From Alitta virens (taxonomy: Eukaryota; Annelida; Polychaeta; Phyllodocida; Nereididae): a stretch of 64,000 nucleotides of DNA. Shown in pieces: positions 21,629 through 39,545 of this stretch. The DNA is taken from positions 34,545,250 through 34,609,249 of the forward strand of contig OW028579.1 of assembly GCA_932294295.1 (NCBI GenBank), in the 5' to 3' direction. The position numbers were made by a program, and so were the translations under genes. Each line of letters starts with the position of its first letter. The first letter of the stretch is position 1. Under the pieces are notes generated by a model. It was given only the letters and a program-made list of their open reading frames with translations. It had not been told where the DNA came from and searched no databases.

Positions 21629-21634
21629 GGCATT
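21629..21634. repeat. Polinton target-site duplication, left
   Basis: GGCATT immediately outside the left TIR, repeated at 39540-39545 immediately outside the right TIR. Six bp is the duplication size known for Polintons. Confidence 0.9.
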
Positions 21635-21695
21635 AGTAGTTAGAAGGCTACGATAAAACGGTAGCTTCTGGCGGCCTACGACAGGCGGTGCTAGT
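21635..21695 (+). repeat. Polinton left terminal inverted repeat (identical core)
   Basis: Sixty-one bp identical to the reverse complement of 39479-39539. Similarity continues inward with indels through CGACGATATGTATGGAC, GGTGCCCGAAGG and, near 21940, CAGGGGCTATAG, so the full TIR is roughly 190-330 bp. A second partial copy of the terminal motif (ACGACAGGCGG.GCTAGTGG) lies at 21908-21926. Confidence 0.92.
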
Positions 21696-22096
21696 GGTAC
21701 CTGCGACGATATGTATGGACGACGTACCTCGAAAGGGTGCCCGAAGGTCTAAACGACGTGCTCCGCGTGAGGGATGAGCAGGTTGAACGCCAGGAGCTAC
21801 AAGCTATGGATTTAGATGACATGATATGTTTACCAAGAGTAGAATTATCCTGCTGATTAATGAGCTGTCAGGCACTTATTGTACTAATTTACACTTTGCG
21901 CAGTCAACGACAGGCGGAGCTAGTGGTTGTGTGTGAGCCCAGGGGCTATAGCTTGATTACTACAAATACATTAACTTATGCATTCGAACATGTGCTGAGG
22001 CTCAGTATTAAGGAACCATTTATGTACTAGACGTAACATTCCCACAATCAACAACAGACTGTGCTACATTCTAATTGTATGAGAACTGTATAACTA

Positions 22097-22348
22097 GTGT
22101 TTTATGCCTTAGGAGACTGCAAACGTGTACCAGCAGAGACATACAGCCTAACGTGGGTTGCCTTTAACATTGTGCCCTGTTTAATGTGTGCTGAAGAACA
22201 TTACATAGAAGTGGTAAGGAGTGACGACTCCTTTACAGATCTTATTACATGTTTGAAGAACTATCATGATAACCTTGATATTGATAAATATGATCCTGCA
22301 CAAAGAACCATTGTTAATGTTGAAGTTACCCGTCACAATCATCGATAA
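22097..22348 (+). CDS. Hypothetical small Polinton ORF or exon
   Basis: An open stretch of about 83 codons with several Cys and an acidic middle (FTDLITCLKNYHDNLDID). There is no ATG at its start. A plausible acceptor (TTTATGCCTTAG, ending at 22111) lies inside it, so it may be the second exon of a gene whose first exon would lie in or near the TIR-proximal region. No family recognised. It sits upstream of the integrase. Confidence 0.25.
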   Translation: MFYALGDCKRVPAETYSLTWVAFNIVPCLMCAEEHYIEVVRSDDSFTDLITCLKNYHDNLDIDKYDPAQRTIVNVEVTRHNHR

Positions 22349-22462
22349 CGTACTGGATGCTAGGATATGACTCGTCATGTAAGGTTAGTATAGTTATAGG
22401 ATTAATATGCTATTATTATGTTCTTATTCTACTGATTTACTAAATAGTATGACATCATGTTT

Positions 22463-22529
22463 CAGAAGATGCTATTGCAGTACATACAACAAATCGCAGA
22501 AGATGCTATGCAGAACATACAACAAATCG
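22463..22529. repeat. Two-copy tandem repeat, about 33 bp
   Basis: CAGAAGATGCTAT..GCAG.ACATACAACAAATCG occurs twice in direct succession between the hypothetical ORF and the integrase. The rest of 22349-22776 holds no gene. Confidence 0.7.
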
Positions 22530-22776
22530 TATAGCAGGACAACACAGCCACTTATATTATGTACCAACGCTAATTTCAATAAATGAGCACCAATCGCACA
22601 CTACCTCGTTGTTATGTATATAGCTGTATTATACTGATATATCAGTTGAGAATGAGTATACCATAGACATCGCATGTAGTTGACAGAGCGATTGTTATAT
22701 TATGTATTAAACAGATAGCAAGCAGTCTTTATTCATAATAGCCTTCGTAGTTATCGTTAACGTACTATCCATCATT

Positions 22777-23910
22777 ATGGCTCACAAATCGTTTGAGATA
22801 GATCAGTTTTTGAGTGGTATCTATTACACAATAGGTCAACCTGGTAGTTATTCAGGTGTACGAAAGTTGTGGAACGAAGTAAAGAAGAGACAAATTAAGC
22901 CTAAAGGTATCACGTTATCAGTCGTTGGCAAATGGTTGAAAGAGCAGACAACTCATAACATACATAGTACGCCTACAAAAATATTTAATACTGAACATAT
23001 AATAGTTGAACATATTGATGACCAATGGGATAGTGATATCATACAGATGGACGAATTAGCCAAATATAATAGAGGATACAAATATATCTTAATATGTATA
23101 GATCTTTTTTCACGTTATGCATGGGCGCGGCCCCTTAAGTTAAAAAAATCAACAGATGTTACGATAGCATTTACAGATATTGTTAAAACGTCAGGCAGGG
23201 AATGTAAGACTATACGCACTGATCAAGGTGGAGAATATACAGGAGCCTCATTTCAAAGACTTGTACACAGCAGAGGTATAAATCACATGATAGCATATGG
23301 CCGTCACAAAGCTTCTTACAGTGAACGATTCAATAGAACATTAGAAAATAAACTGTTTAAGTACTTTTATGAACAACAGACAGCAATGTACATAGACATT
23401 CTGGATGATGTCATGTTCAGCTATAATAACACAGTCCACCACTCTATTAACATGGCGCCTGCTGATGTTAACACAGAAAATTCACATACTATATATGAAC
23501 AAGTGTACATACCCATACTTAACAGATGGGCTAACACACCTGTCAAGTTCACTATAACTCTAGGAAGTCTGGTTAGACTGAGTTTATACACTGGCCCTTT
23601 TTCACGAGGCTATCACGAAAAGTGGACTGAGGAACTATTCACAGTTTGTAATCGAATTCCATCACATCCGCCTAGATATAAAGTGCAGGATCTCAATGGA
23701 GAGAGTATCAAAGGGTCATTCTACACAGAAGAGCTGCTATTAGCATCTGTTCAAAACTTAGATGATATAACATATAAAATCGACAGAGTTATAAAGACTA
23801 AAAAGGTTAAAGGTCACAAACTAAGCCTTATTAAATGGTATGGTTATTCTGACAAGTTTAACACTTACATACCAACAACATCCATACAGCATTACAAAAG
23901 CAAACAATAA
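22777..23910 (+). CDS. INT: Polinton integrase (retroviral type, C-terminal chromodomain)
   Basis: 377 aa. The DDE/RNase H-fold core has catalytic residues D87 (WDSD), D149 (TDQGGEY) and E183 (SERFNRTLE). The N-terminal part resembles the helical region of Polinton integrases (PGSYSGVRKLW, WLKEQ). Residues about 328-372 read as a chromodomain (YKIDRVIK...LIKWYGY), a module these enzymes use to read chromatin. It would act at the TIR ends to insert the element and make the 6-bp duplication. The start is the first ATG of the frame. The stop overlaps the next start by one base (TAATG), so the capsid gene follows directly. No break or missing catalytic residue. Confidence 0.93.
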   Translation: MAHKSFEIDQFLSGIYYTIGQPGSYSGVRKLWNEVKKRQIKPKGITLSVVGKWLKEQTTHNIHSTPTKIFNTEHIIVEHIDDQWDSDIIQMDELAKYNRGYKYILICIDLFSRYAWARPLKLKKSTDVTIAFTDIVKTSGRECKTIRTDQGGEYTGASFQRLVHSRGINHMIAYGRHKASYSERFNRTLENKLFKYFYEQQTAMYIDILDDVMFSYNNTVHHSINMAPADVNTENSHTIYEQVYIPILNRWANTPVKFTITLGSLVRLSLYTGPFSRGYHEKWTEELFTVCNRIPSHPPRYKVQDLNGESIKGSFYTEELLLASVQNLDDITYKIDRVIKTKKVKGHKLSLIKWYGYSDKFNTYIPTTSIQHYKSKQ

Positions 23911-24335
23911 TGTTCGTGTACATATCATCCGATGTTGATAAGGAGAACTACTTTCCTGGTAATACACCAACATCATTCAGGGTTAAACTACCAGGCAGGG
24001 TAACATTCAGCCCTCAAGGTAATTGGGAAGTTGCCTTATTAGACATAGATTTACCTAGACCTGTTGACAAGTATAACTCTATATATATCACCATTAACTC
24101 ATCTATATGTAAACCTAGTCCTGTCAATGCTATATTGTCACCTATTTTAAACAGAGTGTACTTCAACCAAATCAGCAGAGGGGCACCAGTGTATTTTGAT
24201 AACCCACGCTATGTACCTCTGGGTGTTGATGGTTTAGACATTATAGACATATATTTAACAGATAACACAGGCATATACCCATCATTCAAACAAGGGAAGG
24301 TCAATGGGACACTACACTTCAGGTTAATAACATAG
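23910..24335 (+). CDS. Minor capsid (penton-like) protein
   Basis: 141 aa. It opens MFVYISSDVDKENYFPGNTP and continues FRVKLPGRV...GNWEVALLDIDLP. This is the signature of the short Polinton/adintovirus jelly-roll protein thought to form pentons (surface strands, then WEVAL..I..P). Its length is at the short end for the family. It sits between integrase and major capsid, as expected for a virion gene block, and its ATG overlaps the integrase stop. The assignment rests on motif memory and position. A structure search would settle the jelly roll. Confidence 0.75.
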   Translation: MFVYISSDVDKENYFPGNTPTSFRVKLPGRVTFSPQGNWEVALLDIDLPRPVDKYNSIYITINSSICKPSPVNAILSPILNRVYFNQISRGAPVYFDNPRYVPLGVDGLDIIDIYLTDNTGIYPSFKQGKVNGTLHFRLIT

Positions 24336-24367
24336 AGACTACAGATCTCCTTACATGTAGATATATT

Positions 24368-24829
24368 ATGGCTGATAATGCGAAGTATTACTCGTTTAAT
24401 AAGGGTGTAGATTACGATATTCTACTAAAACATTTCAAAGGTCAAGCAGATGGTTCGGTAGCACCATATCTTACTAGCTCACGTTTTCATAACAAAAGAA
24501 CGTACGCTAATTCACACACACGTCGTATAATTATTGTTAATAAGCCGAAAACTAATACTAAGACTACAAACGAGAAAGATATAAGTACTGGCGACGTTAT
24601 TGACCCTACAGAGGCGCAACGTCGTAGGGCGTTGAATGAATTAGAAGTAGCAGCTACTAATATAACTACTGAACAGAAGACTCATCCTAATCACACGGTT
24701 TTGAGTAGAGCTAATAGTAAGACATACCATAAGAGGCACATAGTATATAGGACACCTGCAGAAAAGAGAAAAAGAGTGAAGAAGACCGTTGATAAGGTTA
24801 TACAACGTACGAAGGACGTGTTTGATTAA
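24368..24829 (+). CDS. Basic protein of the capsid cluster, possible virion core or minor protein
   Basis: 153 aa, strongly basic, especially at the C-terminus (EKRKRVKKTVDKVIQR), which could serve as nuclear localisation and DNA-binding sequence. No domain recognised. It lies between penton-like and major capsid genes, with 32 bp upstream and 10 bp downstream, so it is probably expressed with them. Position and charge suggest a DNA-packaging or internal capsid protein, as other Polintons have uncharacterised genes here. That role is inferred. Confidence 0.7.
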   Translation: MADNAKYYSFNKGVDYDILLKHFKGQADGSVAPYLTSSRFHNKRTYANSHTRRIIIVNKPKTNTKTTNEKDISTGDVIDPTEAQRRRALNELEVAATNITTEQKTHPNHTVLSRANSKTYHKRHIVYRTPAEKRKRVKKTVDKVIQRTKDVFD

Positions 24830-24839
24830 TATACTAACC

Positions 24840-26264
24840 ATGAGTCAGGAAGTGTTAGAGGATGCCTATATAGGTTATTCCGAAGAATTAGCTATTTTCC
24901 AGAAACCTATCCAGAATGTTGGTATCAAGAATACCCATATAACAACATTCTATCCTGTGAACGATTTTTCAACACAAGGCGTTATTCAGTTCCAAGTGAA
25001 CAATAACAGTAGTAACTATTTAGATTTACGTAGAACAAGGCTTAATATTACATGCAAAATAGTACAGCAGAATGGGGGCAAGATCGAACCTGTCACTGTA
25101 GCAGGTAATAGATCAAAACGCTCTAAAGATACCGAAGACACAAGCACTGCAGCTAGCACTACAGCTACAACAACAACAACAACAACTAAGGCCGAGGCTT
25201 CTGTTGGCGTTGTTAACAATTTTATGCATTCAATGTTCAGTCGTGTTGACGTATCCCTGCAGAACAAAGTGTTAACACACTCTGATGAATCATACCCCTA
25301 CTTAGCTTACTTCAAGGCTTTACTACATACAAACAGTGAGCTGAAAGAAACAACATTACAGATGGGGATGTTTTACAAAGATACACCAGGGAAGTTAGGG
25401 GATCCTAATTGGCAGTTGGGTGATAACAAAGGGTTGAAACAACGATCCAGCTACTTTGCTAACTCACGTGAAGTTGATATGTCTGGACATCTGTATTGTG
25501 ATGTTTTAGACATATATAAGTTTGTTCCTAATGGTGTGAGTTTAGGTATAACATTATATCCTAGCACACCGGAGTTTTGCTTAATGGCTCCAGAGGTAAC
25601 AGTAGGTAGTTACAAAGTACAGATTACTAGAGCTTCTCTGAGTGTTTCAATGATAGAAGTAATTCCTGAAATTTTGGTTTCGCATGCAGAAATAATGGTG
25701 AATAAGCCTGCCATCTTCCCCTACATTAAAACAGAAGTAAAAAAATTTACACTGGGTAAGGGGCAATTTTCATGTAGAATTAATGATCCATTCACAGGCC
25801 GTGTACCATGCGAGCTGGTTTGTGGTCTTGTTACTGATGTAGGTAACCATGGTACGTTGTTCACCAATCCTTTCATGTTTGAGCACACATCACTCAACTT
25901 TATTCAAGTCACTGTGGACGGGCATGATTTAGGTCAAGGTCCTATCATGCCAGTATATAAAAGCAAGCCTGAGGCAAGTTCATACATTGATGCATACAAA
26001 ACTCTTTGCGGTATAGAGTATGGTGACCATTTTAATCCTCTCAGTCGTGAGGAGTACATGCAAGGTTACACATTCTATAGATTTGTTGCTGGCTCACAAT
26101 GCGATTCTAATAATGATGATATACTCCCCTTGAAACGCTCAGGTAATTTACGCATTAGTTTAAGGTTCTCTAATGCTCTGCCCGAACCAACAACACTAAT
26201 TGTGTTTGCAAAGTTCCCTGCCTCAGTTATGATTGATAAATATCGCGGTGTAACTGATTTATAG
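24840..26264 (+). CDS. MCP: Major capsid protein (double jelly roll)
   Basis: 474 aa from the ATG at 24840. The frame is open further upstream from 24789 but that part overlaps the preceding gene. Family-typical features include FSTQGVIQFQVNNNSSNYLDL..T.LN near the start and VNNFMHSMFSRVDVSLQNKV....YPYLAYFKALL in the first jelly roll. A low-complexity Thr/Ala insert (about residues 97-117) probably forms a surface loop. The protein should assemble hexon-like capsomers with pseudo-hexagonal symmetry. It is followed after only 7 bp by the packaging ATPase. No frameshift or stop. Confidence 0.88.
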   Translation: MSQEVLEDAYIGYSEELAIFQKPIQNVGIKNTHITTFYPVNDFSTQGVIQFQVNNNSSNYLDLRRTRLNITCKIVQQNGGKIEPVTVAGNRSKRSKDTEDTSTAASTTATTTTTTTKAEASVGVVNNFMHSMFSRVDVSLQNKVLTHSDESYPYLAYFKALLHTNSELKETTLQMGMFYKDTPGKLGDPNWQLGDNKGLKQRSSYFANSREVDMSGHLYCDVLDIYKFVPNGVSLGITLYPSTPEFCLMAPEVTVGSYKVQITRASLSVSMIEVIPEILVSHAEIMVNKPAIFPYIKTEVKKFTLGKGQFSCRINDPFTGRVPCELVCGLVTDVGNHGTLFTNPFMFEHTSLNFIQVTVDGHDLGQGPIMPVYKSKPEASSYIDAYKTLCGIEYGDHFNPLSREEYMQGYTFYRFVAGSQCDSNNDDILPLKRSGNLRISLRFSNALPEPTTLIVFAKFPASVMIDKYRGVTDL

Positions 26265-26271
26265 TTAGTTG

Positions 26272-26982
26272 ATGCAAAGTTGTTACATGTACAACATCAT
26301 GACGGAACAAGAGAATATATGTTTAATACCTTTTAAGCTCCCTCAAAATATATCAGTGCAAGGATCCACACAAGCAGGAAAAACGGAATTTGTCAAACGT
26401 TTACTCCTAAATTATAAGACTATGTTCACGCCTCAAGTTAATAAGATTATATATGTATATACGGTATGGCGGGACAAATTTGATCATTTGGAACACGCCT
26501 TGAATGATATAATAGAGTTTAGAAAAGATATACCGTCGAAAGAGTATTTAACAGGCCTGTGGGAGGCAACCAGAGCCCCCAGTTTACTTGTTCTTGACGA
26601 CCAAATGAGCAATTTAAGTGACAGTCGCCAGGGTGCACATGTAGCTGAAATAGTGTGTGTTCTCAGACATCATTGTCATGTGTCATGCATTATAACACTA
26701 CAAGATATGTTTTATGAAAGTAAAGCTGCTCGATTAATCAGTAGAAACTCGCACTGTATCTGTCTATTTCGTAACCATAGGAATGGCAGGCAGGTGTCAG
26801 CATTAGCAAGCCAGGTTTTACCGGGTCAAACAAAATATTTTATGGATAGTTATGAACGTGCTACTAAGCGTAACTATGGTTATCTAATAATCGATTTATC
26901 ATCTAATGTTGATGACAGGTATAAATTGCGTTCTAATATCTTTCCAGGTGAGGAAACAGTTGTGTTTCTACCGCAGTCATGA
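26272..26982 (+). CDS. Genome-packaging ATPase (FtsK/HerA type)
   Basis: 236 aa from the first ATG. Walker A is GSTQAGKT (residues 31-38). Walker B is LLVLDDQM (105-112), followed by a sensor-like region (CIITLQDMF) and a conserved SRNSHCICLFRN stretch. These are the marks of the A32-like packaging ATPases of Polintons, virophages and adenovirus-like viruses. The small size is normal for the family. A second in-frame ATG at residue 10 could be the start instead. The stop overlaps the next start (ATGA). It would pump element DNA into a procapsid. Confidence 0.92.
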   Translation: MQSCYMYNIMTEQENICLIPFKLPQNISVQGSTQAGKTEFVKRLLLNYKTMFTPQVNKIIYVYTVWRDKFDHLEHALNDIIEFRKDIPSKEYLTGLWEATRAPSLLVLDDQMSNLSDSRQGAHVAEIVCVLRHHCHVSCIITLQDMFYESKAARLISRNSHCICLFRNHRNGRQVSALASQVLPGQTKYFMDSYERATKRNYGYLIIDLSSNVDDRYKLRSNIFPGEETVVFLPQS

Positions 26983-27305
26983 AACTGATTAAAGAAAACA
27001 TGATATTCTTAAAGGCTGTAGCATCGCTTAACAAGGACCAAGTTAAAGCTCTGTTGTCACATGTAAACAAAGAACAGATCCTGGCAGTAGCAGAAATAGC
27101 TAGAAATATACTTACAGGTGTTGTAACACTTCCTCATAAGTATAAAAGATCCCTAAAGTTATACAAACGCGTCATTAGAGAATTATCTAACAACGAGGTA
27201 ACACTTAACACTAAGAGATATTTAATATATAGTAAAGCTGAAGTTGTATCTCTATTGATAAAGAGCATACTGACTAAACTTGTAACAGTTGTTGGTCATG
27301 GCTGA
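26979..27305 (+). CDS. Small helical Polinton protein
   Basis: 108 aa, predicted mostly helical: KAVASLNKDQVKALLSHVNKEQILAVAEIARNIL, then a basic YKRSLKLYKRVIRELSN and a hydrophobic end. The Q...LAVAEIARN.L.G signature with K(R)SL..YK..IREL occurs in a short gene next to the ATPase in many Polintons and adintoviruses. It is presumably a virion core or assembly factor; the function is unproven. It overlaps the ATPase stop, and the following gene starts inside its last codons. Confidence 0.75.
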   Translation: MKLIKENMIFLKAVASLNKDQVKALLSHVNKEQILAVAEIARNILTGVVTLPHKYKRSLKLYKRVIRELSNNEVTLNTKRYLIYSKAEVVSLLIKSILTKLVTVVGHG

Positions 27306-27657
27306 GGAAAATGTTGTTATACCTAGAGACAGGTACAACAGAATGTTGGAACAGTTAAAAAATAGTAAAGATGATAAACTAACACAACAGGTAGATAACA
27401 CTACCGACATTAAACCTGTTGACCTTGCAACACCAGCGCCTGATAACGATAAAGTTGTACATACAGTAAGAACAAAGGATGACATCGTTCTTAAAGAGAG
27501 CCACCACCCTCCTGGTCTTAAACATGACGATATAGATATATTTATGAAAAGAATTGCTAAACAAAAATCTAGAAAGAATACAAAGTTGACAACACATGCA
27601 AAGCATAAGACCAGAAAGTCCAAACTTAAAGCAAACTGGATCAGTATTTCTAAATGA
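27298..27657 (+). CDS. Small conserved Polinton protein, C-terminal basic tail
   Basis: 119 aa from the ATG at 27298, which overlaps the end of the preceding ORF. The N-terminus (VVIPRDRYNRMLEQL) resembles the ..VP...Y..LL start of a short adintovirus/Polinton protein encoded at this place. The tail is rich in Lys/Arg (KKRIAKQKSRKNTK-like), suggesting nucleic-acid binding. Probably the last gene of the virion block. Function unknown. Confidence 0.65.
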   Translation: MAEENVVIPRDRYNRMLEQLKNSKDDKLTQQVDNTTDIKPVDLATPAPDNDKVVHTVRTKDDIVLKESHHPPGLKHDDIDIFMKRIAKQKSRKNTKLTTHAKHKTRKSKLKANWISISK

Positions 27658-27811
27658 TAGTGATGCATTAGGTTTGACATAACAATGGATGGTTATTTAA
27701 GGACATAATCAGTAGTCCTAGGATACCGTTATATACGGAGTGTGTGATGATAGTTACAACAGATATATGTGAACTCCATACATATCAGCTTAATAATGAT
27801 AGTTGAAGGAG

Positions 27812-27819
27812 TATATAAA
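27812..27819 (+). promoter_or_regulatory. Candidate TATA box of the PC4-like gene
   Basis: TATATAAA-type sequence about 95 bp before the ATG at 27914, inside a 256-bp gene-free gap after the virion cluster. It would allow separate expression of this gene. Confidence 0.4.
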
Positions 27820-27913
27820 GACTTAGTGAGTGCAAACATTTACACACTTGTTCTAAGAGCGTTACATCCTATTATCAGAGATTATCGCACAGACTGCTTC
27901 CCTACTCAACACG

Positions 27914-28858
27914 ATGGCAACCTGCACACCAATTCGAAAATATTATAACCTGGGTGGCACTCAGGTGAAGGGCGTGTTTCTGTGGTACAGGGAGATCAGC
28001 TCTAGGAAGTTCTTGACTCTCCAGAGATATAAAGGGAAGGTGTCTCTGCACATCAGAGTTTACACAATCGACGACCAGGATTATTGCCTTATTCCCACAA
28101 AAAAAGGCGTAATGCTAGACAAGCAGCAATCAAGGGATCTGATGGCCTCGATGCATAACTTGGCTACATTTATAGGAGTCGTAAGTAATTTATAATATTA
28201 TCTATAATACGCCAGACTGTCTATATAATAAGAGACTACGTATATGTATTGTATTAATACTATCTATAATAAGAGACTGTAAATATTGATTTGTAAGTAT
28301 ATATGTCTCATTATTATGCAGGTTACACCGGGCGGTCAGACATCTCCCCCCGACGATACTGCTGATGGATCCCTTGCAATTGACGCCATGGTTGACGATG
28401 TAGAGTGGTGCATGGATGGTCGTGAGTCGTTTGCTGATCATTCAGATGTAGATGAGTACTCTCAGCACATTTTTAAGGTGCACGTTGGCAAGAACGTTCA
28501 CTGCAGAGCCAAGAAGGCATCCAATACGATCGACATAAGACATAGTTTCTTCCGCAACATGTCAACAACTTCTGAGCACCCAACGCAAAGAGGAATTAAA
28601 CTAACTAAATATGAATTCACAAAACTTCTTGGGTTTCTTCCACAATTGGAGACAAAATGGAGCGGGTTAGCTGACTTAGCAGCTTGCTACACCACTCACA
28701 CAACGCACGATAACCTCCAGGCCTGTCACCACTGCACTCCTAAGCCCTTACCGCCTAGACCTCTACATGCACGTTCTAACATCAACACTGGAATGCAAGA
28801 CCCCCAGCCCTCAACTTCAACAGCAACAACGACTGATAGGGAACCCATGATTCAATAA
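27914..28858 (+). CDS. Two-exon protein with two PC4-like ssDNA-binding domains
   Basis: Exons 27914-28180 and 28322-28858. The intron of 141 bp has donor GTAAGT and acceptor TTATTATGCAG, both in phase 0, giving 267 aa. Domain 1 (residues about 10-86) follows the PC4/p15 plan: LGG start, FLTLQRYKGKVSLHIRVY, PTKKGVMLDKQQ..L, closing helix. Domain 2 (about 138-203) repeats it: KVHVGKN, NTIDIRHSF, PTQRGIKLTKYEFTKLL. An acidic linker joins them, and the C-terminus is Pro/Ser/Thr-rich. PC4-fold proteins bind ssDNA and act in transcription or replication. Here a replication SSB-like or late-transcription role is inferred. Unspliced, the first exon would still give a one-domain 93-aa protein. Confidence 0.72.
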
Positions 28859-28859
28859 A
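28854..28859 (+). terminator. Polyadenylation signal overlapping the stop codon
   Basis: AATAAA contains the TAA stop of the PC4-like gene. Confidence 0.55.
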
Positions 28860-29258
28860 ATGTATCAACAGTGGGGTTTACATGTATCGGTTATTAAGAC
28901 ACAACTCCTAGTTATATAGACTACTAGTACATATTAACGTGTTATAATCTACCGTTATACCTCATCGAGCTATATAACCAATACTAATTATATATTGCTA
29001 TGCTTATATTCTTCATGTACTACTGCAATACAATCTTGCTAGACTATTCATATATTCGTGACATTATATCACCTTTACTACTATGTTACAATGTTCAATT
29101 CGTTATATATTACCTATGTTATGTTACAATGTACTCCTATATTTAATAAATAAACTCGTCAGTACATTCTGTGGGTTATACCCCTTCATTTTCGCCAGTA
29201 TGTTATGATCATACATATGCTCTACATAATAGTAATACTAGTCATTACTATCAATATA

Positions 29259-29317
<59 letters not shown>

Positions 29318-29416
29318 CCCCCTCAGGGGTCTCTCGTTAAAATATATATCTACTTTATGAGAGCAATTAATTTTATTACTTTCACCGGTATACATATATA
29401 TAGAGGAGCGTGAACC
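28860..29416. other. AT-rich Polinton spacer with TA microsatellite
   Basis: No gene. (TA)n runs at about 29262-29315. AATAAATAAA near 29144-29153 may be a second poly(A) signal. Confidence 0.6.
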
Positions 29417-30234
29417 ATGCCTATATACAGATATCATCTTAGTACTACTGCACTTCACACAATGGAAGTATTGAGAGATTACGCTGATATATTGATCAAC
29501 AAGATTAATACAAACGAGATATGTATGATACTACGTTGCGAAGGTTTACTTAAAGATTCTGATCTAATCGTTATCAGATCTAAACAAACACAATTCGATA
29601 AGACGAAAACGCTGTTAAACACCTTGTATGCACGCAAGAGCTACAAAGGTACAGCATTATTATTCAAGTATCTACAGCGAGAGTATGAGGCTGTTGCTAA
29701 CACAATTCCTGAACTAATAGGAGGTAGCCGCACAAGTCTAGCCATCAATACAGCGGTAACACTCTGCGTTATGTGCACAGACGGCGATGTAACTATCCAG
29801 CTGACAGATAATCAGGTAAGTTGATATTATACATGCGCACTCCTTACACATTCACGCATATATATGTACTATATTAACTGAGCAGTATTTGTATACATCT
29901 TAGTTATATAACAGTATTCTCATTTGTTTAGGATGACATCCTCAAGGAAGAGTTGGCAGTGACATTACCGTTACAACAATTCGTGAACATGGTGTACTAT
30001 ATACCAACTTTAGCGTTCGGAGAAATCGATACAACTGTACATTTGGGGGGCTTTTTCTATCTGGTTAAAAAAGGATGTGCTACAGAGGTATGCAAGATCA
30101 CGAAGAATACCATTAAGGATGAAAAAGTGACCTTAACTAACGAGGACATGCAGACTATTGATGTTTTGTTAGAACATGTTGAACACGCCGCGCCTGAGAT
30201 GTCCCTGCTAACACCTTATTTTTGCTACATATAG
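29417..30234 (+). CDS. CARD-domain (death-fold) protein, two exons
   Basis: Exons 29417-29815 and 29932-30234, 116-bp intron (CAG|GTAAGT ... TTTGTTTAG|G), phase 0, 233 aa. Residues about 10-100 match the six-helix CARD pattern: LRDYADILINKI, ICMILRCEGLLKDSDLIVI, FDKTKTLLNTLYARKSYKGTALLFKYL. These carry the usual leucines and the 'gll..D...I' turn. Exon 2 ends in a beta-rich part (VHLGGFFYLVKKG...VTLTNEDMQTIDVLL) that may be a diverged PC4-like fold. CARDs mediate homotypic contacts in apoptosis and inflammasome signalling, so a decoy or host-signalling role is plausible but inferred. The gene stands alone between AT-rich spacers. A DED or plain helical bundle is the alternative. Confidence 0.65.
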
Positions 30235-30347
30235 TTAATATCATGATAAAGAATAAGGCGAATCATTGTCTGCTCTTTTATAACGTTTAATATGTAGTAA
30301 TACATAGTATAACAATGTATATGTGCATATATATATTTATACACTGT

Positions 30348-30353
30348 AATAAA
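30348..30353 (+). terminator. Polyadenylation signal of the CARD gene
   Basis: AATAAA 114 bp after the stop codon, in the convergent intergenic region. Confidence 0.5.
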
Positions 30354-30751
30354 GATACATAATCCATAATAAAACAATTTGAAATATTACTACAGTTTTA
30401 ATAATCGTTATCTGTCATGACATAGTGTTAACAGTATACATTACATATATATCGGAGGCGTTACAATAATGCTACACAATATAATCATGCAGTAACAGTG
30501 CATAACACATTACTACAGTCATGTCATACTACTAATAGTAATATATTACATAGTATAAGCATTTAAGTAATGCAGCTGTCTACACAATAATGCTACACAG
30601 TATAATCATGTAATGAAACAGTTGGTAAAGCATTACTACATTTGCAATACAAATAGTACACGTATCTGTCAGAGACAGTTAATAGTAAACATGATGCAGT
30701 TAAGCTTATGATCACACAATAGTAACGTGTTTACATACATTCGTAGATGAT

Positions 30752-31061
30752 CTCTCACAATATTTAAGCTACAGATATCAGTGGACGGTAATAGAACAGT
30801 TGAACAATACATATATATCGCTATTACATACTAATATAAAGTAAACAATATTTATAACTATGCGCCAGTGTTCAAGAGTTGGTGTAATAATGTTAATCGT
30901 TGCAGGCTGCGTGCTCTCACAATATTTAAGCTACAGATATCAGTGGACGGTAATAGAACAGTTGAACAATACATATATATCGCTATTACATACTAATATA
31001 AAGTAAACATATTATAACTATGCGCCAGTGTTCAAGAGTTGGGGTAATAATGTTAATCGTT
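30752..31061. repeat. Direct repeat, two copies of about 150 bp, 162-bp period
   Basis: CTCTCACAATATTTAAGCTA through GTAATAATGTTAATCGT occurs at 30752-30901 and again at 30914-31061, nearly identical. It lies in the gene-free zone (30235-31146) where plus and minus transcription units of the Polinton converge. Confidence 0.85.
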
Positions 31062-31146
31062 ACGTCTCCCCGTAATCGTAAGTTTAGATAGCAAATACAT
31101 TGGTCATGTTAATGACCACAGTGATCATAACAGCGATGGTACATGT

Positions 31147-32339
31147 CTAGACAGGTGTACACTTGCCACTGTAGCTTCGTAATTTTGACCTGTACAGCGA
31201 AGGTGATTCGTCGTCTGAGGTGTTGGGGTACGACAACCTCACCTTCACATTGGTCATAGATCCATGGGTCGTTGTTTTTGGGGTTTTGCTTAAGAGACAA
31301 TCATCACAAGTGGCGACTGCACCTTGAAGAGTGTCAACGGCTGGAGGCGTGCTGGCAGGGGCGGAATTCAGGGGGACAACAGCGCAGGCGATATTCACGG
31401 GGCAAACAGCTCCATCCACGGGGGTCAAGTGGTCGCATGTGCTACAAGAGAGAGTGTACAGCATATATAGATAGTAACAATAAGCTCATCAGTAGTGCAA
31501 ATGTACAAATGTACCGTATACAGGGTATAAGCCATAGATATAGTACTACAATTGTATACCTTGTGCTGTCAGATGTAGTACTACTACCACGGCGTAATCT
31601 GTTGTGTGCCCCTGCAAGGGTATGGTGGGCCATGCTGACCACCCCCGTTAGTACAGCTGTACCAGTCGCAGGATCCCTCTGAAAAGACGGATAAAACGTT
31701 ATAAGTACTGTAGCAACAGAAGGAGTACAACGGCGTAGCTAAATGACACAGTCTTGCAGATGGAACATGCTTAGCGAGTAGTATAGCGTAGAATGACAGT
31801 AGTACGGACTTATAGATATAATAGATTACGAGGGTTCAATCATGAGGTGTACAATACAGATATATGTAATAATAACGTACCTTATATATCCAAATACCAA
31901 CACCGGTTGATACAAGCAGTAATAACACTGCAGCAACTGTAGAAACAACAACTGCAGCTGTGGTAGGATGGTTAACCACTCTATTGTGTTGGCCGTCATG
32001 CGATCCAAGGTTAAATGCACCTAGACCCTGGTTCTGCATATCCTTGTTAACGGCCCGTTTGCATACAACCTGGGCAGAAACATCATGTGTAGGTGGCGTG
32101 CGCGAATGGCAATAAAGAGTTCCCGTCATATCGACAAAAGATAGCATGCTGTATTCCATCGCCGAGAATTCTTCAATTGGTACTTGAACCAGAGATGGTG
32201 ATTTCGTGCAGTCTGCCCTGATACTCGTACCATCGTTTACCACTTTACATAAGCACAGCCGGTTAGCACATATGTACCTGTAGCCATCGCACCATGTCAA
32301 TAAGGCTAGGCTTAGCAGATAAAACATAAAGCGTTGCAT
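31147..32339 (-). CDS. Type I membrane protein 1 (three exons)
   Basis: Exons (minus strand) 32339-31881, 31678-31560, 31441-31147. Donors are GTACGT and GTATAC, acceptors TTTTCAG and TCTTGTAG, and the frame closes at 290 aa. Signal peptide about 1-19; ectodomain with Cys 24, 29, 31, 44, 77 and 93; transmembrane helix about 128-152. The intron directly follows the membrane helix. The cytoplasmic tail is Thr/Pro-rich with CDDC and CSTC pairs (one residue created at a splice junction). The ectodomain reads like a small LRR-cap module: C.C....G..I.ADCT......VP. Its cysteine plan and first-tail-intron position match the next gene, so they are tandem paralogues. Role unknown; surface or host-interaction protein is inferred. 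Confidence 0.68.
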
Positions 32340-33452
32340 ATTTCCTGTCTTACTCCTTGAACTGTTTAGAACAAACTGAGCAGAAGTTCTAGACTGTGAG
32401 GGGGGTCATTATGTAATTACCCCCCTCTGCGATTTTATTATATAATTAGCAACCACCCCTTTGACTCCTTAACAGAGGTGCCAACAATATTAGGTAATTA
32501 ACAGGGTGGTGTCAACTATTTGGGGGTAACGCTAGGAGCTGTAAACACTGAGATGCTAACTGTTTAAACAGTACCCCACCCTATGGGGTCCATTGTTCAT
32601 GAACAATAGCTAGCTATATTCCATAGAATACAGTGTGTAGGATTATGCTATCAATTACCTATGATGCTGCTTATATGTTATTAGTATATATCTCAGATAT
32701 TGCCAAGTTGTTACTATTATGAGTTCTGTTGCACAATGTATGATATACGTTCACACGTACTATATATATATATATATTAATGTATGATACATTAACATGT
32801 ACTGTGATAATATATGAGTGTGGCTTGCTTCTATGTGTTAGAATCGAGGTGTCATACTGATGAGCAGTGGATAACACACTCTAACTGCAGGGTTATTATA
32901 ATAACTGAATCTGGCCAGTACAATGTGCTATACACTGTAGAAGTAGTGATTGTTAATGCGCATGTCTGAGATATATGATAATAGTATAATAAACGTACAA
33001 CACAAGTGTCATTGTGGTCAAATAACTTTATATACTTAGTATAGCAATATATGCAATGAGACATTACACGTGTAGACATGAGAGTTTATGAATAACAGGT
33101 ATATAGCATCTATACATTGTGTACAGTATAACATAACCCTCCCTAATAAACATGTAATATTTAGAGCAGATATATCGTGTATAATGTACAGTATAATAAT
33201 AATAATAGTACTCGGATATCTGTTAAAGTTATGTACGAATCATTATATAATTGTGCAATCAGTGTATGAATAACAGGTATAGCATCTATATATTGAGCAG
33301 ATATATCATGTATAATAGTATTCAGATATCTGTTAAAAGTTATGTATGACATTATATAAAGTGTGCAAATCAGTTTTTACGGACATTATCGAGTATTACG
33401 ATTATATATATATATATATATATTGTATATGTATACGTAGTGTACGCTACAC
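32340..33452. other. Spacer between the two membrane-protein genes
   Basis: AT-rich, gene-free. TATATAA on the minus strand at about 32435-32445 lies about 100 bp upstream of membrane protein 1 and could be its TATA box. A partial duplication (TAACAGGTATAGCATCTATA.. / CAGATATATC.TGTATAAT) lies at 33093-33345. The small ORFs here are AT-rich noise. Confidence 0.5.
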
Positions 33453-34236
33453 TTACGCTTCTTGTGAGACCGTCATAGCAGTATCTAATTGGATCCGCAG
33501 TCTTGCGCTCCTGAGACGTCGTCCGAATGCAGCTATTATTATACCAACCTGTAATGAAGTGATTTAAGCGTTAATATGAGAGACGATTACACAGTAATCG
33601 TATGAACTAATAGCATGTATACGTACCTTGAGTATAATGTATATCAAGACAATGCATGACACACTAAACTGGAAGACGTTAACCGCGTTTATGGTCTTAC
33701 TAGACCAGTAATATATGGCACTGGGTCGACTAGGTGCAGCGCTAGTAGAGTGTACTATGGTGTTGTAAACATTCCTCGTAAACATCGTAATCTCTGAAAC
33801 GCTCTGGGCACTTGTGTGTACAACCTGTATGTTACTCATAGCACCTGTAGATACCTCTGAAACATAATAATAGTATTGATTAAGGATGTATAGGATATAA
33901 TAATATAATAATGTGTGCAATATATCTACGTTACTCACCTGAAGCTCTGTCTAAGCATAGGATTGTTTTGTTGTGTACAGTTGTCCTTACTGTTGCATTA
34001 CGACAGAACACAGTGCCAGACATGTCGATTGATGTCATAAGCTGTAGAATATCCATTGCGAATGAGGGGAGTTGCTGAAGCCATGAATGTTTGGTACAAT
34101 CCGCTTGAATGAGCTGTCCATCTTCAAATGTTGTGCATGTACATACACCAAAATGATCCAAAGGTTTATAAGATCCACACAGTATATTACCGCTAATGAT
34201 AAGTGGTATGTAGAGAGCTACAGCATAGAACAGCAT
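33453..34236 (-). CDS. Type I membrane protein 2 (three exons), paralogue of protein 1
   Basis: Exons (minus strand) 34236-33939, 33856-33627, 33548-33453. Donors are GTGAGT and GTACGT, acceptors GTTTCAG and ATTACAG, giving 207 aa. Signal peptide about 1-18; Cys 20, 32, 34, 47, 78 and 94 reproduce the CxC-x12-C-x30/32-C-x15-C plan of protein 1. N-glycosylation sequons are RNAT and HNKT. The membrane helix (VFQFSVSCIVLIYIILK then VGIIIAAFG) is split by a phase-0 intron after Lys, close to the place used in protein 1. The short tail is basic (GRRLRSARLR). GTAAGT overlaps the stop region (GCGTAAGTG), so a further alternative exon is possible. Confidence 0.65.
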
Positions 34237-34427
34237 TCTAAATGTTGTAAACTTTAACTAGTGCTTACATTAACCTCGGCAAGTGCTCACTAGTGCGTGT
34301 CACGTGTCTAAGGTTAACATATAGAACATTACACCGTATGGTTTAGCAAGGTCATGTTCTAAAAAGTTTTCAGCATAGTGCAACCATTATTAGCAAATTC
34401 TTGTTAGCTGTGATGCTTAGCAATACA

Positions 34428-37400
34428 TCAATAACCATAAGGTAATGTATTGTATGTATCCCTACCTATAACACGCTTGTCAAAAACTTTTCTGAATACT
34501 TTACTTACAGATCTATTGTACACTATACCTCTGTGTTTAACACGAGATATTTGATTGCTCTGAGGGAGCCTAAGAGAAGTGACCTGTCCAAAAACTATCT
34601 GTTTCATACTTTCAAAATCTATAAGCGTGTCATTCGAGTAGTTGAACGAAATTCCTTTGATTTTCCGCACAGTGACATCTGTGTTTAATTTGTAAGAGTA
34701 GCTCTTAGGACCTGTTGATAGAAATGTTTTAATATAAGTGTCGGGTTGTAATTCATCAGTTAAATCACCTAACAGATCTCCTGTCTCAACATCTGATTCA
34801 CCATTACGTTCAACAAATATGACGGAGTCTGTATCATAATATAATGTGTTGCGCCCCGTTTTATTTAACACCTGTAGTAAATGTAGACGTGCTAATGATG
34901 TGGTAAATATACCAATGACTTCATTTGTGAATGTTGATTCCTCTTCAAAGGTCTCAGTATTTGTAACGTCAACCACGACATAATCCTCAGAGATTAAATG
35001 GAAATTCATTATACATTTTGTAGGGTCATTCTTCATTTGTGTGTATTCTTTAACAGACTTCATGTATATAGATTTAGGTAAGTTCTGACGTTGTACAAAT
35101 TTCCCCCACACACTGTTGAGAAACAACTTGCAGATTGTCCTCAAAGAAGGATTGTGGGTAATGGATTCTTTATCGAGCATTATACCTTGTTCTTTATTGT
35201 AATATGCAATGTATCGATCCTTATCAGCATCTGTAGTTACCCATTGTGGATAACCTGATGCTTGCTGTTTCTGTTTAAGAAACATCTTAACATAGCCCGT
35301 GAAAATACTACCAAAAGCATCATCTTGTGTCGTAGTAGGGAAATGATATACTTCATATATCTTCAGTAGTATGTAGCCTTGCTTAATAGCTTCTTTCAAC
35401 TCTGGTGTTGTCCATGTTCCAAACAGAGCTCTCTTAGCATCACTGCATGTACACATAGCCTGTGTTTCACGTGAGGAACATGTACTGCATAAAGGAAACT
35501 TCAGTTTACCCCTACAGCGAACGGGTAGAACAGGTATATATAAACCTCGTGGTGGTAGGATCCGCACCTGGGCCAGACCGTAATAAGTTTGTAGCGTGTA
35601 GTCAAAGGTAGCTGGATCCTTGAGTACTGTAGCATGTGACGTAGGATAAACTCCAGACATCGTGATATAAGGATATAATGAAGTTACGTCGTAAAAACGT
35701 ATCCTCTCATCATCCTGTGTATCATAATATAGTGTTGTGGGTTCAACCCTCCCTCCTGAAAAACTATCACGGATTTGTAACGGTTTCACAGTATCGCAAT
35801 CATTAACGAATTCCCTCATGGGAGAATTAGTCTGTAAAAGCTCATCATAATGACACTCCCATATAGATTTAATTTTGTAACCTAGTTTTCTGATTTCAGC
35901 GAGACGTTCCAATGTTCTGTCGTAGAGAGCTTTCAATGTCATGCGTGTGCGAGGATCTCGCACGTGCCTGTCTTGTAAACACGTGTGACCGTGAAAACGA
36001 CACCCTAGGTATTCATAAACTGTATTACTGTCTATATGTATACCATCGACGGTGTATCGTGTTCCAGGGATACGATGCTCCCCACCGTTCCTAGCATGCT
36101 GTATATGTCTATTTTCAGAATAGCTTAACCATTCTAGCCATAAGGCTGACTTCTGGCTAGCATTATGATGTTTACCATACCCTTGTGCAGGTATCTGAGG
36201 TATAGGTGATTTAATAAACTTTGATGTAGATATGATGTCTGCATTTATGATGCTGCCATCAAAATACCATATATCACGTCTTAACACTGCTTCCCCAACC
36301 CTACCATCAGTTAACGTTACATTATAAACCTCATACAACATCAGTTGCCGGATTACCTGCATAGCGCAAGATGCCAGGGTTGCATGGGCAAATGGATCGA
36401 TACCTGGGACACTGGAGTCTGCTATAGTTGTGACAGATTGTATAAGAGCCCTAAAATTAGTGCATGCTTCTCTAAGGATTGTAACATCTGAGCGTGTGTA
36501 ATCTAACATTTCCTGCTGAAAATTAAATGTCTTACCACTCTGTTCATTATACCATATGAAGAAATCAGTTCTATCGGCTGCCGACATAAAATCAGCACCG
36601 TAATAGCAAGGAGCAAACATCGGACCAATATATGTTTGATTTTCTAGAGTGTTTGCTAAGTGCGGGAAGTCACCTTTCTTAAGTTCACCATGTAAACCTA
36701 ACGCCTTAGGTAAGTTCTTTAATCGCATGGGCAGAAAATTCAAGCTATCTATAAACCTAATGTTCACACCTTGGTTTATACTCATCAACATGATCTTAGT
36801 ACCAGCAAATATAATTTCTGGGAAGATGCCATTGTCAACACAATATCCCAGTATAAAATGAGCATCAAAAGCTTTCGCATTATGAGCTATTGCTGTTACA
36901 TCTTTATGTTGGGGCGTTAACAGCCATTTACAAAAGTCCTCTGTTGTATTAGGACCTCTGAATATGTTTTCCCTCTTACCACATGTGTCAAGAGAACACA
37001 ACTCTCGTGCAAAGGTTTTTGCTAGTTTGTCCTTAACGGAACAGACATTACATCTATCGCCGCAGTTAACACACTTGGATTGTGGTGTGAACTCATGATC
37101 TTTACATACATCGCACACTGTTTGACAAACCAGAAAATTAGGAATATGTCTTTGTAATCCACAGTATGATCTCTTACAGTTTACACATTTACGACATAGC
37201 GTGCACGGATATGTTGTGGTACACTTATCACAACCATCTCGTGGTTTATTCTTGTAGCCACGATCACAATTAATGATGGTGTTTTGACATGTTTCAAAAT
37301 CATAGTAAAGAAACTTGCCTGATGACTTTTTAGGTTTCTTTATTCTGTAATAGCATAGATGATTGCCTAGGACATACTCATGACAGCATGTGCAAAGCCA

Positions 37401-38735
37401 CTCTCCACATGTATGCAGATGTTTGGCTCTTTTTAAAGTATCCAGTATTATGAAACATGTATTACATCTGTAGTACTGATTACAGAGTGATGGTTGATCT
37501 TTCCCCCTAAGTGCACCTACGCTATATTGTCGTTGCTCTTTATGCCGTTCATAGGATGATGTGTTACGACATGTCATGTTACAATCTGAACAATCTATTG
37601 AATTATTGTCAAACATACAATGTTCTGAACAGCATGTACTGCACACATCATCGCAGCCATGCTTTTTGTTCTTATTGTACACTTCAAAACAATGGACACA
37701 TATCTTTCTATTCACATAAAAACCTTGGATTCTAGTAATACTGTGATAATGCTCATCTTTGAGATATAGAAATATCTTGCGAGGTCTTGTAAACAAACCT
37801 TTATATATCACATCATTGCCTGTATCGCCAGATATAACTATGATTTGGATATCTAATGCTGTCTCGAATTTATGTAGCTCCTTAACTTTAACTGGACTAG
37901 TTGTGGGTACATCAGCCTGTCTATGTAGTCTGATAGCGTAGCTACGTTGTGATTCATAGTCTTTACTTGAAACTCTGTCTTTTCTAATAAGTTTTGCAAA
38001 CTTGGCTGCCGGTATGTTATCTAACTTAGCTTTGCATGTGATAATAGCTCTAGCAGCGCACAAATGTTCATTGCGTACAACAGGAATGAATACCATTGAG
38101 CGTTTTTTCCTAATTGTACAATTAGCAGATAGCGGGTCTGTATCTACAATGGCTCTACTGCATCCACCCCCCTGGTCATCAGCATTCATTATGCCTATGT
38201 TAACTTCAAACGTATCATCGATATTCAAGGACTTGTTCGATTGGAGAACTGTGTTTATTCTGTAAATAATAATACACATAACTATTACTAATGTGAATAT
38301 CGTGTATGCTAGGTTATAATATGTTATACCTCCCATATTATGTAATGATAGTGTTAATGATGTATTATATATGTGAAACTTTGATATATCTTACCTATCC
38401 ATTATCACCTCGGCTGTGATATTATGCTGCGGTTGGCAGTGTATAAACACTTCTCTCTCTAATCCTGAGTGATTAATTGTGACGCGTGCTTTATCATTCT
38501 TGTTTGGATGTTTATCTTTAACTAGTTCCATGATATCTGTGAACATATTGTGTAGATCATCTTGCATATTGATCAGCTGCTCTCCTTGTAAGTCGTTGTT
38601 GAATTTAGCTTTGTATGTTACCTCCTCAATACCGAATTTTCTTGATATCCGTTCCCTCACAGGGTGAATAATGTATGGTTTCGTATTAATACCATCCACC
38701 TCTGTCTTATTCTTTTTTGCTGGTATGTCAGCCAT
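34428..38735 (-). CDS. PolB: Protein-primed family B DNA polymerase (two exons)
   Basis: Exons (minus strand) 38735-38395 and 38259-34428, 135-bp intron (ATAG|GTAAG ... TTATTTACAG), 1390 aa. Exonuclease motifs: YYDFETC (about 434-437), AHNAKAFDAHF (573-579) and YTRSD (701-705). Polymerase motifs: SGGR (948), DVTSLYPYI (971), KLFLNSVWGK (1158) and YYDTDSV (1255). A Cys-rich zinc-binding region lies between about 300 and 530. YEYLGCRFHGHTC (about 863-875) is the VSR-endonuclease-like insert known from these polymerases. The LCAARAI...YHSI region (about 180-290) may be an OTU-like fold. Exon 1 supplies the conserved N-terminal segment. Without it the long frame would begin with intron-derived hydrophobic residues. 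It replicates the element from its termini. Confidence 0.92.
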
Positions 38736-39478
38736 TACTTTGGTGTAATATGCAGCTATTAGGAGCAATATCCATCTACATATCACTCTTTGTAGTATTA
38801 TTCTTACATAATGCGTGATAGTTCATTCATCAACCTTTATGTACAGACAACAACAATGGTCTACACATTATCATACCTACCGCATACTATACTGCACCCT
38901 CTAGGGCAACCTGTTGCCAACTTGCTTAAGGGGGTCCTGTTAGATCATTTATCAAACTTTGGTACACATCCGTTATCCGTACTTATTGTTACCACAGTAT
39001 GTGTGCATACTTGTACAGTCTGTTGTCAGTTTAATGCATTGTCCTGTTGGATAAATGTTTCATCAATACTGGTCTTCGTACATAACTATAACACCTTGTG
39101 TTATGACCTTAAGTGTTGGGGAGATACCAGCTCCATACACAAACCCTAACAATATTAACATATTGTTATACAACATCGGGTCACTAGCCCCGTCTATCCT
39201 CTGCTTTAGGGGGGCGTTTAACATTAGTGTAATAAGTACCCTGCAGATCATAATTCAGTACACTGATACGCGCATCATGTCCGCTGTGTAACATGCAACT
39301 CTTAAACCTCATAGTACCCGCCTCATGTCCTCCCCCCATATTAAATCTATAGCCCCTGGTCTTCCACAGGCTCCTCCGTCACGCTAAGCACGTTGGTCAA
39401 GCCTTCGGGCACCCGTTCGAGGTACGCTGTCCATACATATCGTCGGAGCGCCACCTAGTGGCCACCGTCATCAGTACT
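38736..39478. other. Right-end Polinton spacer
   Basis: Between PolB and the right TIR. A 62-codon hydrophobic ORF from an ATG on the minus strand (39251-39063) is the only candidate gene and resembles nothing known. The outer part (from about 39340) is the diverged inner section of the TIR. Confidence 0.45.
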
Positions 39479-39539
39479 ACTAGCACCGCCTGTCGTAGGC
39501 CGCCAGAAGCTACCGTTTTATCGTAGCCTTCTAACTACT
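39479..39539 (-). repeat. Polinton right terminal inverted repeat (identical core)
   Basis: Reverse complement of 21635-21695, identical over 61 bp. The next inward bases carry a 20-30 bp insertion relative to the left end before similarity resumes. Confidence 0.92.
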
Positions 39540-39545
39540 GGCATT
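39540..39545. repeat. Polinton target-site duplication, right
   Basis: GGCATT, identical to 21629-21634. Confidence 0.9.

Follow-up and report, generated by a model that had tools for sequence, protein, structure and literature searches.

A Polinton of the annelid Alitta virens carries a conserved two-exon gene with a predicted caspase-recruitment domain and a putative PC4-like C-terminal half

A stretch of 64,000 nucleotides from the genome of Alitta virens (assembly GCA_932294295.1, contig OW028579.1, positions 34,545,250 to 34,609,249 of the forward strand) was analyzed; it is called the window below, and its own numbering is used throughout. The subject of the analysis was a gene at 29417–30234 encoding a caspase-recruitment domain (CARD). 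This gene lies within a single Polinton, inserted into the animal chromosome, which occupies 21635–39539. The terminal inverted repeats (TIRs) of the element were alike in 65/66 bases over their outer parts (left, 21635..21700, forward strand; right, 39474..39539, reverse strand) and in 78/96 over their weaker inner parts (21704–21799 and 39350–39445), and both outer sides were flanked by the 6-bp target-site duplication GGCATT, identical at the left (21629..21634) and at the right (39540..39545). These TIRs and the 6-bp duplication, together with a DNA polymerase B (PolB) and a retrovirus-like integrase, define the element as a Polinton/Maverick. The location of the gene inside a Polinton with intact ends, claimed in the first-pass annotation of this DNA, was therefore borne out.

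The gene consists of two exons on the forward strand. Exon 1 was open over 29417–29815 (133 codons) and exon 2 over 29932–30234 (100 codons and a stop), and the intron between them (29816..29931) began with GTAAGT, preceded by CAG, at 29816 and ended with TTTAG at 29931. The CARD is encoded by 29465–29704 and is followed in exon 1 by the first strands of a C-terminal domain, which continues in exon 2 with a putative PC4-like unit from about 30031; the relatives of exon 2 were 70–98% identical. Thirty-five distinct genome places with an exon 1 match were inspected (37 loci minus two duplicates, the window included), picked across subfamilies and not at random. Exon 1 was whole in 27/35, with an ATG, no stop and the GT at the same codon in all 27. 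Among the relatives found in public data, six of the nine for exon 1 extend as far as the junction, where each of them has Q-V or K-V, as the GT donor predicts, and two of the four for exon 2 read through the acceptor. With both exons open, splice signals present and the GT kept in every whole copy, the two-exon model with a closing frame was upheld. Its start was revised: the more distant copies support the second in-frame ATG, at 29462, instead of the one at 29417 chosen earlier. Position 29462 is probably the true start, since the similarity to distant copies begins there and since in subfamily copies such as L013 and L014 a stop within the match lies 5′ of that ATG, the frame from the ATG being open. 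Exon 1 thus defined (29462..29815) encodes 118 amino acids, a length kept without gaps down to 29–32% identity, and the whole product, CARD and C-terminal region, has about 218 residues.

The scan of exon 1 against Pfam returned CARD as the sole family at E ≤ 5, with E 0.0016 and 18.8 bits (the curated cut-off of 23.9 was not reached), over residues 17–96 as numbered from 29417. In an alignment of the window protein with nine public relatives (A1), whose members are mutually related and not independent, Pfam CARD matched nine of the 10 members at E ≤ 10, the best with E 1e-4. When a profile of nine diverged copies, the window's included (A3), was compared with the PDB, the CARD of Apaf-1 was matched with E 0.0011, and CARD proteins accounted for 14 of the 19 matches at E ≤ 10 (13 Apaf-1 and one ASC). 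The best AlphaFold2 model, obtained from a shallow alignment of 10 sequences, placed helices at residues 12–27, 32–41, 47–54, 59–72, 76–89 and 91–94, with a block-mean predicted local distance difference test score (pLDDT) of 58–82 over residues 21–90 and a predicted template modelling score (pTM) of 0.55; the mean pLDDT of the other four models was 37–41. In a fold search with the exon 1 model, CARDs made up 48 of the best 50 matches listed, and the closest solved relatives are the CARDs of Apaf-1 and NOD1. The assignment to a six-helix CARD, proposed at first for residues 10–100, thus stood on the Pfam, A3-PDB and fold results, with its extent reduced to the 17–96 covered by the match; the structure-prediction check, which had been set beforehand, returned a six-helix CARD-like fold.

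No match to exon 1 was found in PHROGs, NCBIfam yielded weak unrelated rows only (best E 0.017), and no relative was detected in IMG/VR with the CARD, the capsid or the ATPase as query. Two further matches were judged to be due to chance, one between the CARD and a phage collection (E 0.9) and one obtained by tblastn of exon 1 at 63657–63836 of the window (E 0.007), which falls in a DUF229 gene region.

Only a portion of the product had been noticed in the first-pass annotation. Beyond the CARD, the end of exon 1 and exon 2 form a C-terminal half of about 130 residues, which is conserved and under purifying selection and constitutes a second region resembling a PC4-like protein of the same element; the AlphaFold2 model gave strands, at low confidence, in the region after the CARD. 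One clear and one weak PC4-type protein are encoded side by side on the forward strand of the element: a PC4-domain protein at 27914..28195 (Pfam PC4 E 8.3e-10, above cut-off; PDB PC4/p15 E 0.005) and a second, weaker PC4-like protein at 28286..28858 (Pfam PC4 E 0.019, under cut-off, and no match in the PDB). The comparison of these two by hhalign, made without a shuffle control, gave E 6.7e-5 and a probability of 64 over 23 columns.

The last unit of exon 2 aligned end to end with the weaker protein (28286–28858), scoring 21.5 by hhalign in the window register against a maximum of 14.4 among 60 column shuffles, and 26.0 and 25.8 with L042 and L031 as masters, where none of the 40 shuffles per master exceeded 14.7. 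The probabilities of these alignments were 21–53, and shuffles as high were obtained in 0/60, 0/40 and 0/40 cases. Directly against the PC4 open reading frame (ORF), the masters L042 and L031 gave 21.2 and 20.9, above 40/40 shuffles each (at most 17.4), with a probability of 12. On these alignments, we consider it rather probable that the C-terminal half is PC4-like. The region before the last unit looked, by eye, like a first copy of that unit split by the intron. The best match of an exon 2 profile in the PDB, a viral fusion glycoprotein with E 0.049, was judged to be due to chance.

The host genome (671 Mb, 23 contigs) was searched with exon 1, for which 150 of 394 candidates were scored, all at E ≤ 1e-10, and with the ATPase of the element, for which 150 of 1219 were scored; absence from either list is weak evidence. 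The scored exon 1 matches comprised 18 copies at 98–100% identity (the window's included), many at 74–84%, many at 62–72%, fragments, and 13 at 31%. Merging neighbours within 12 kb, they formed at least 138 clusters, fragments included. A CARD exon was present within 15 kb in 111 of the 113 listed ATPase copies with at least 85% identity, and at 21.9 kb in one of the other two. By identity class, the listed ATPases with a CARD exon at this distance were 19/20 (at least 96%), 55/56 (90–95%), 37/37 (85–89%), 3/17 (79–84%) and 0/20 (62%). The zero of the last class reflects, at least partly, which matches were scored, since the only copy of it that was read, L042, has the gene, with 30% identity to that of the window and 45% to those of the 31% group. 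For 26 of the 150 CARD matches, 13 of them from the 31% group, no listed ATPase was found within 15 kb.

The gene was read in two divergent Polinton lineages, in L027, L028, L030 and L031 and in L042; the ATPases of divergent lineages were 56–59% (L038, L036) and 62% (the L042 element) identical to that of the window. Among the window-type copies that were read, the CARD gene comes after the PC4 and PC4-like genes; both divergent lineages have it to the left of the integrase, with the exon boundary at the same place. Conservation in related elements, which had been proposed as a check, was thus observed in at least 138 clusters and two divergent lineages. An open frame of 988 amino acids at C5:26747772 (L029) was considered as a host fusion and rejected in favour of an insertion, as its exon 1 pieces lie 2.8 kb apart with element genes around. 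At C11:28.44–28.76 Mb, an interrupted CARD exon recurs six times in steps of about 51–53 kb (one of about 99 kb), a series that looks like a large tandem duplication carrying one Polinton along.

The ratio of nonsynonymous to synonymous substitution rates (dN/dS) was calculated by the Nei-Gojobori method for the 15 pairs of six intact copies, taking residues 16–98 as the CARD. For the CARD it was computable in 8/15 pairs, dS being saturated in the other seven, and amounted to 0.05–0.21 in seven pairs (one with a dS of 2.9, near saturation) and to 0.46 in the close pair L025-L023. The values were 0.04–0.47 for the tail of exon 1 (15/15 pairs) and 0.07–0.33 for exon 2 (7/10), compared with 0.03–0.08 for the ATPase (6/6), 0.05–0.17 for PC4 (7/15) and 0.10–0.31 for a small ORF named R (15/15). 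These values indicated that the CARD gene is under purifying selection between subfamilies, like the neighbouring genes of the element and more loosely than the ATPase.

Furthermore, CARDs were abundant in the genome at large. A search with Pfam CARD, in which 150 of 272 candidates were scored, all above the cut-off, found at least 12 matches in open frames of at least 300 amino acids (possible host partners), and also many ORFs consisting of a CARD only. A member of a single PolB-like family was found no more than 6 kb away from 27/28 of the latter of 103 amino acids and from 65/68 of those of 105–110 (92/96 together); by chance, about 0.003 would be expected per CARD match. Of the matches to this PolB-like family, 99/145 had a CARD within 6 kb. 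Examples are L044:1518-1811 and, on the minus strand, L046:1540-1860; others are found in L047–L051. The neighbour is regarded as PolB-like from weak local matches to the window PolB (25–35% over 48–64 residues, E 4e-5 to 7e-5), a motif recognized by eye and its size; it was not named by a Pfam scan. Around the C9 copy, three genes had counterparts in the window element: an integrase with 32% identity (E 2e-50), a capsid-type protein with 25% (E 2e-44) and part of an ATPase with 42%. This second family is therefore also a Polinton, a distant one; the ends of the C9 element were not found in the pieces read.

Pfam recognized the CARD of the second family in both copies scanned, with E 7e-13 and 4e-10, and one copy matches the RAIDD CARD with E 1.5e-6. 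Its profile comparison with the window CARD was not significant (1/60 shuffles as high, in two runs), a result that fits, and does not prove, a separate acquisition of the two CARD types. A third group of CARD-only ORFs, 25 of 93–94 amino acids (for example L045:1573-1851), had 0/25 members near that PolB-like gene, and its CARD, in the one copy compared, was 54–59% identical to that of the second family. An ORF of the second family, L048:2327-2869, showed by eye a RING-like cysteine-histidine pattern, for which Pfam RING gave no match.

Between the left TIR and the PC4 genes, all on the forward strand, the window element encodes an integrase with an rve core and a chromodomain-like end (22777..23910; Pfam rve E 4.9e-12, Chromo E 2.8e-5, slightly under cut-off), a conserved Polinton ORF of 141 amino acids without a Pfam match (23910..24335; 51–52% identity in the divergent elements L036 and L038) and another of 153 (24368..24829; 33–40% in the same two). 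They are followed by an ORF at 24840..26264 for a putative major capsid protein; it has no Pfam match and is deeply conserved, with 58% identity in L036 and 25% over 475 amino acids (E 2e-44) in the second Polinton family. Next come a putative FtsK-type packaging ATPase (26299..26982; weak Pfam FtsK_SpoIIIE E 0.0076, under cut-off; at least 150 genome copies) and two small conserved ORFs, R (26979..27305; 71–100% in related copies and 42% in L036 and L038) and PX (27289..27657; conserved in related and divergent copies).

On the reverse strand, beyond the CARD gene, an ORF with a signal peptide and a membrane span, recognized by eye (31836..32339; cross-matches in L039 and L043), is a paralogue of a second small membrane-type ORF, also by eye (33931..34236; 52% in L039 and L043). 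The pair looks secreted or membrane-bound and is kept in related elements, and in L028 its matches lie about 1.5–3.5 kb from the CARD exon. The polymerase, of the viral/organellar type, lies at 34428..38336 (reverse strand; Pfam DNA_pol_B_2 E 7.4e-40), with a probable N-terminal exon at 38391..38786 on the same strand, matched by eye to the N-terminal PolB frame of L042. No adenovirus-type protease was matched by Pfam among the ORFs scanned, which were part of those of the element. A direct tandem repeat of two near-identical copies of about 160 bases was seen by eye at about 30752–31075, 3′ of the CARD gene. Outside the Polinton, a retroelement was found at 44482–48222 of the window; it has domains for reverse transcriptase, RNase H and integrase, and its G+C content is about 0.54 against 0.35–0.39 around it.

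The reading that we favour, with a probability of about 0.5, is that of an accessory Polinton gene whose product would combine a CARD with a C-terminal domain like PC4, a fold that binds single-stranded DNA, the CARD blocking or capping the assembly of host CARDs. CARDs act by binding other CARDs. In an element that is expressed or replicating, the CARD could bind those of the host Apaf-1, initiator caspases or innate adaptors, and this binding would block or cap the host assembly, so that the cell would neither die nor raise an alarm; the PC4-like tail might keep the protein near the DNA or the replication sites of the element. Capping or competing would be the simplest action for a CARD with neither a caspase nor a nucleotide-binding domain, as reported for the CARD protein of a grouper iridovirus (GIV-CARD), which is described as inhibiting apoptosis and lowering the activity of caspase-8 and -9 (PMC4457926). 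The first-pass annotation had already gone on from the CARD to an action that counters or exploits the death or innate signalling of the host, a step that is reasonable as a hypothesis. The presence of a conserved CARD gene here and of a different one in a distant family suggests that these elements may interfere with host death or immune signalling.

Several observations weigh against this proposal. As to the CARD, the single sequence had no significant match in the PDB, nor had the narrow profile A1, whose best match was the ICEBERG CARD with E 0.3, and the most divergent copies taken singly were weak (L031, E 0.06) or silent (L027 and L042) for Pfam CARD. As to the PC4 likeness, the hhalign probabilities were modest (1–53), the direct comparison of the last unit with the PC4 ORF in the window register (14.7) did not beat the shuffle maximum of 21.0, Pfam PC4 matched nothing in the CARD protein itself in the window and the copies scanned, and the AlphaFold2 model of exon 2 was poor (mean pLDDT 46). 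Additionally, exon 1 was damaged in 8/35 of the places inspected (L012, L021, L029, L032, L033, L034, L039 and L043), and a sublineage with ATPases at 83–84% comprises 14 copies that have no listed CARD exon and have multiplied nonetheless. In the two of them that were read, L039 and L043, residues 14–43 and 90–133 were kept, CARD residues 44–89 were missing and exon 2 was broken. Hence, the gene is dispensable at least in this sublineage.

Other explanations were weighed against the blocking of host CARDs. In the window lineage the gene adjoins those for PC4 and the weaker PC4-like protein, which its C-terminal half resembles; CARDs can form filaments, and filament entries were among the fold matches. 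The CARD might accordingly be a self-assembly module of the element's own, polymerizing the PC4-like part on single-stranded DNA (ssDNA) or organizing a replication focus, with no action on host death pathways. We hold this to be unlikely, as the gene of the divergent lineages lies left of the integrase, apart from the PC4-like genes, and the CARD ORF of the second family has no such tail. It seems quite unlikely, too, that the protein is an activator which nucleates host CARD assemblies, for example killing or alarming cells infected by competing viruses or serving in a selfish conflict system. A lone CARD joined to a different domain could provide a nucleus no less than a cap, and selfish incompatibility in nematodes has reportedly been connected with relatives of Polintons; the many copies with open frames, however, are hard to reconcile with a strongly lethal product unless it is silenced, and no antidote-like partner was noticed, no search having been aimed at one.

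A six-helix bundle unrelated to CARDs, merely resembling them and serving an element-specific role, would have to account for the 48 CARDs among the best 50 fold matches listed and, by an independent sequence route, for the match to the Apaf-1 CARD (E 0.0011) and the 14/19 rows that were Apaf-1 or ASC, and is very improbable. The abundance of CARD matches in the genome could also point to a host gene that is merely carried along by the Polinton or adjoins it, functionless for the element. With the gene inside the TIRs, in at least 138 clusters, next to the same genes in those copies that were read, and under purifying selection, this is hardly credible.

A broader version of the favoured interference with host CARDs can be put forward only tentatively. 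CARDs may have been taken up at least two times and kept by animal Polintons; the window CARD, fused to a tandem PC4-like domain, would have a sensor-like layout (death fold plus DNA-binding), reading or coating the ssDNA of the element and supplying the CARD assemblies of the host with a cap or a nucleus, and CARD signalling would be a standing, overlooked target. If interference with host CARDs is true, Polintons would be tied directly to animal cell death and innate signalling, by a conserved CARD with a PC4-like region and by another type of CARD in a distant family. Virus-like behaviour of animal Polintons would be supported, with small proteins on which to test it, and repeated CARD-only ORFs in animal genomes could be mobile-element genes miscounted as host immune genes.

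Targeted full-text literature searches retrieved no CARD or death domain in a Polinton/Maverick, although papers on the adintovirus family and on nematode Mavericks may mention death-fold genes, and no Polinton PC4 protein, the adintovirus-family paper being outside that scope. In the main text of PMC11071296, none of the terms card, caspase, death, apoptosis and DED occurs as a whole word.

Compared with known systems, the Polinton protein differs from Apaf-1, whose CARD belongs to the apoptosome, in that no nucleotide-binding domain was seen, a putative PC4-like region follows the CARD and the gene is transposon-encoded. It also differs from NOD1, whose CARD was absent from the A3 profile matches, in having neither NACHT nor leucine-rich repeat (LRR) parts; human ICEBERG was the best, non-significant match of the narrow profile A1. 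With regard to the fold of the PC4 (p15) coactivator, the element encodes a clear and a weaker PC4 protein, and the final unit of the CARD protein is similar to the weaker of the two, with no Pfam PC4 match in the CARD protein. The second Polinton family shares the integrase, the capsid-type protein, part of an ATPase and a PolB-like gene, and it also has a CARD, which there is canonical, single-domain and closest to that of RAIDD. Ranaviruses and other large viruses are known to encode CARDs. The CARD-only decoys of viruses consist of the CARD alone, whereas the window protein adds a second region of about 130 residues. The ranavirus and iridovirus proteins vCARD and GIV-CARD, likened here by description, are similar in being virus-encoded CARDs; GIV-CARD has 91 amino acids, and the Polinton protein differs in its second domain, its intron and its place within a Polinton.
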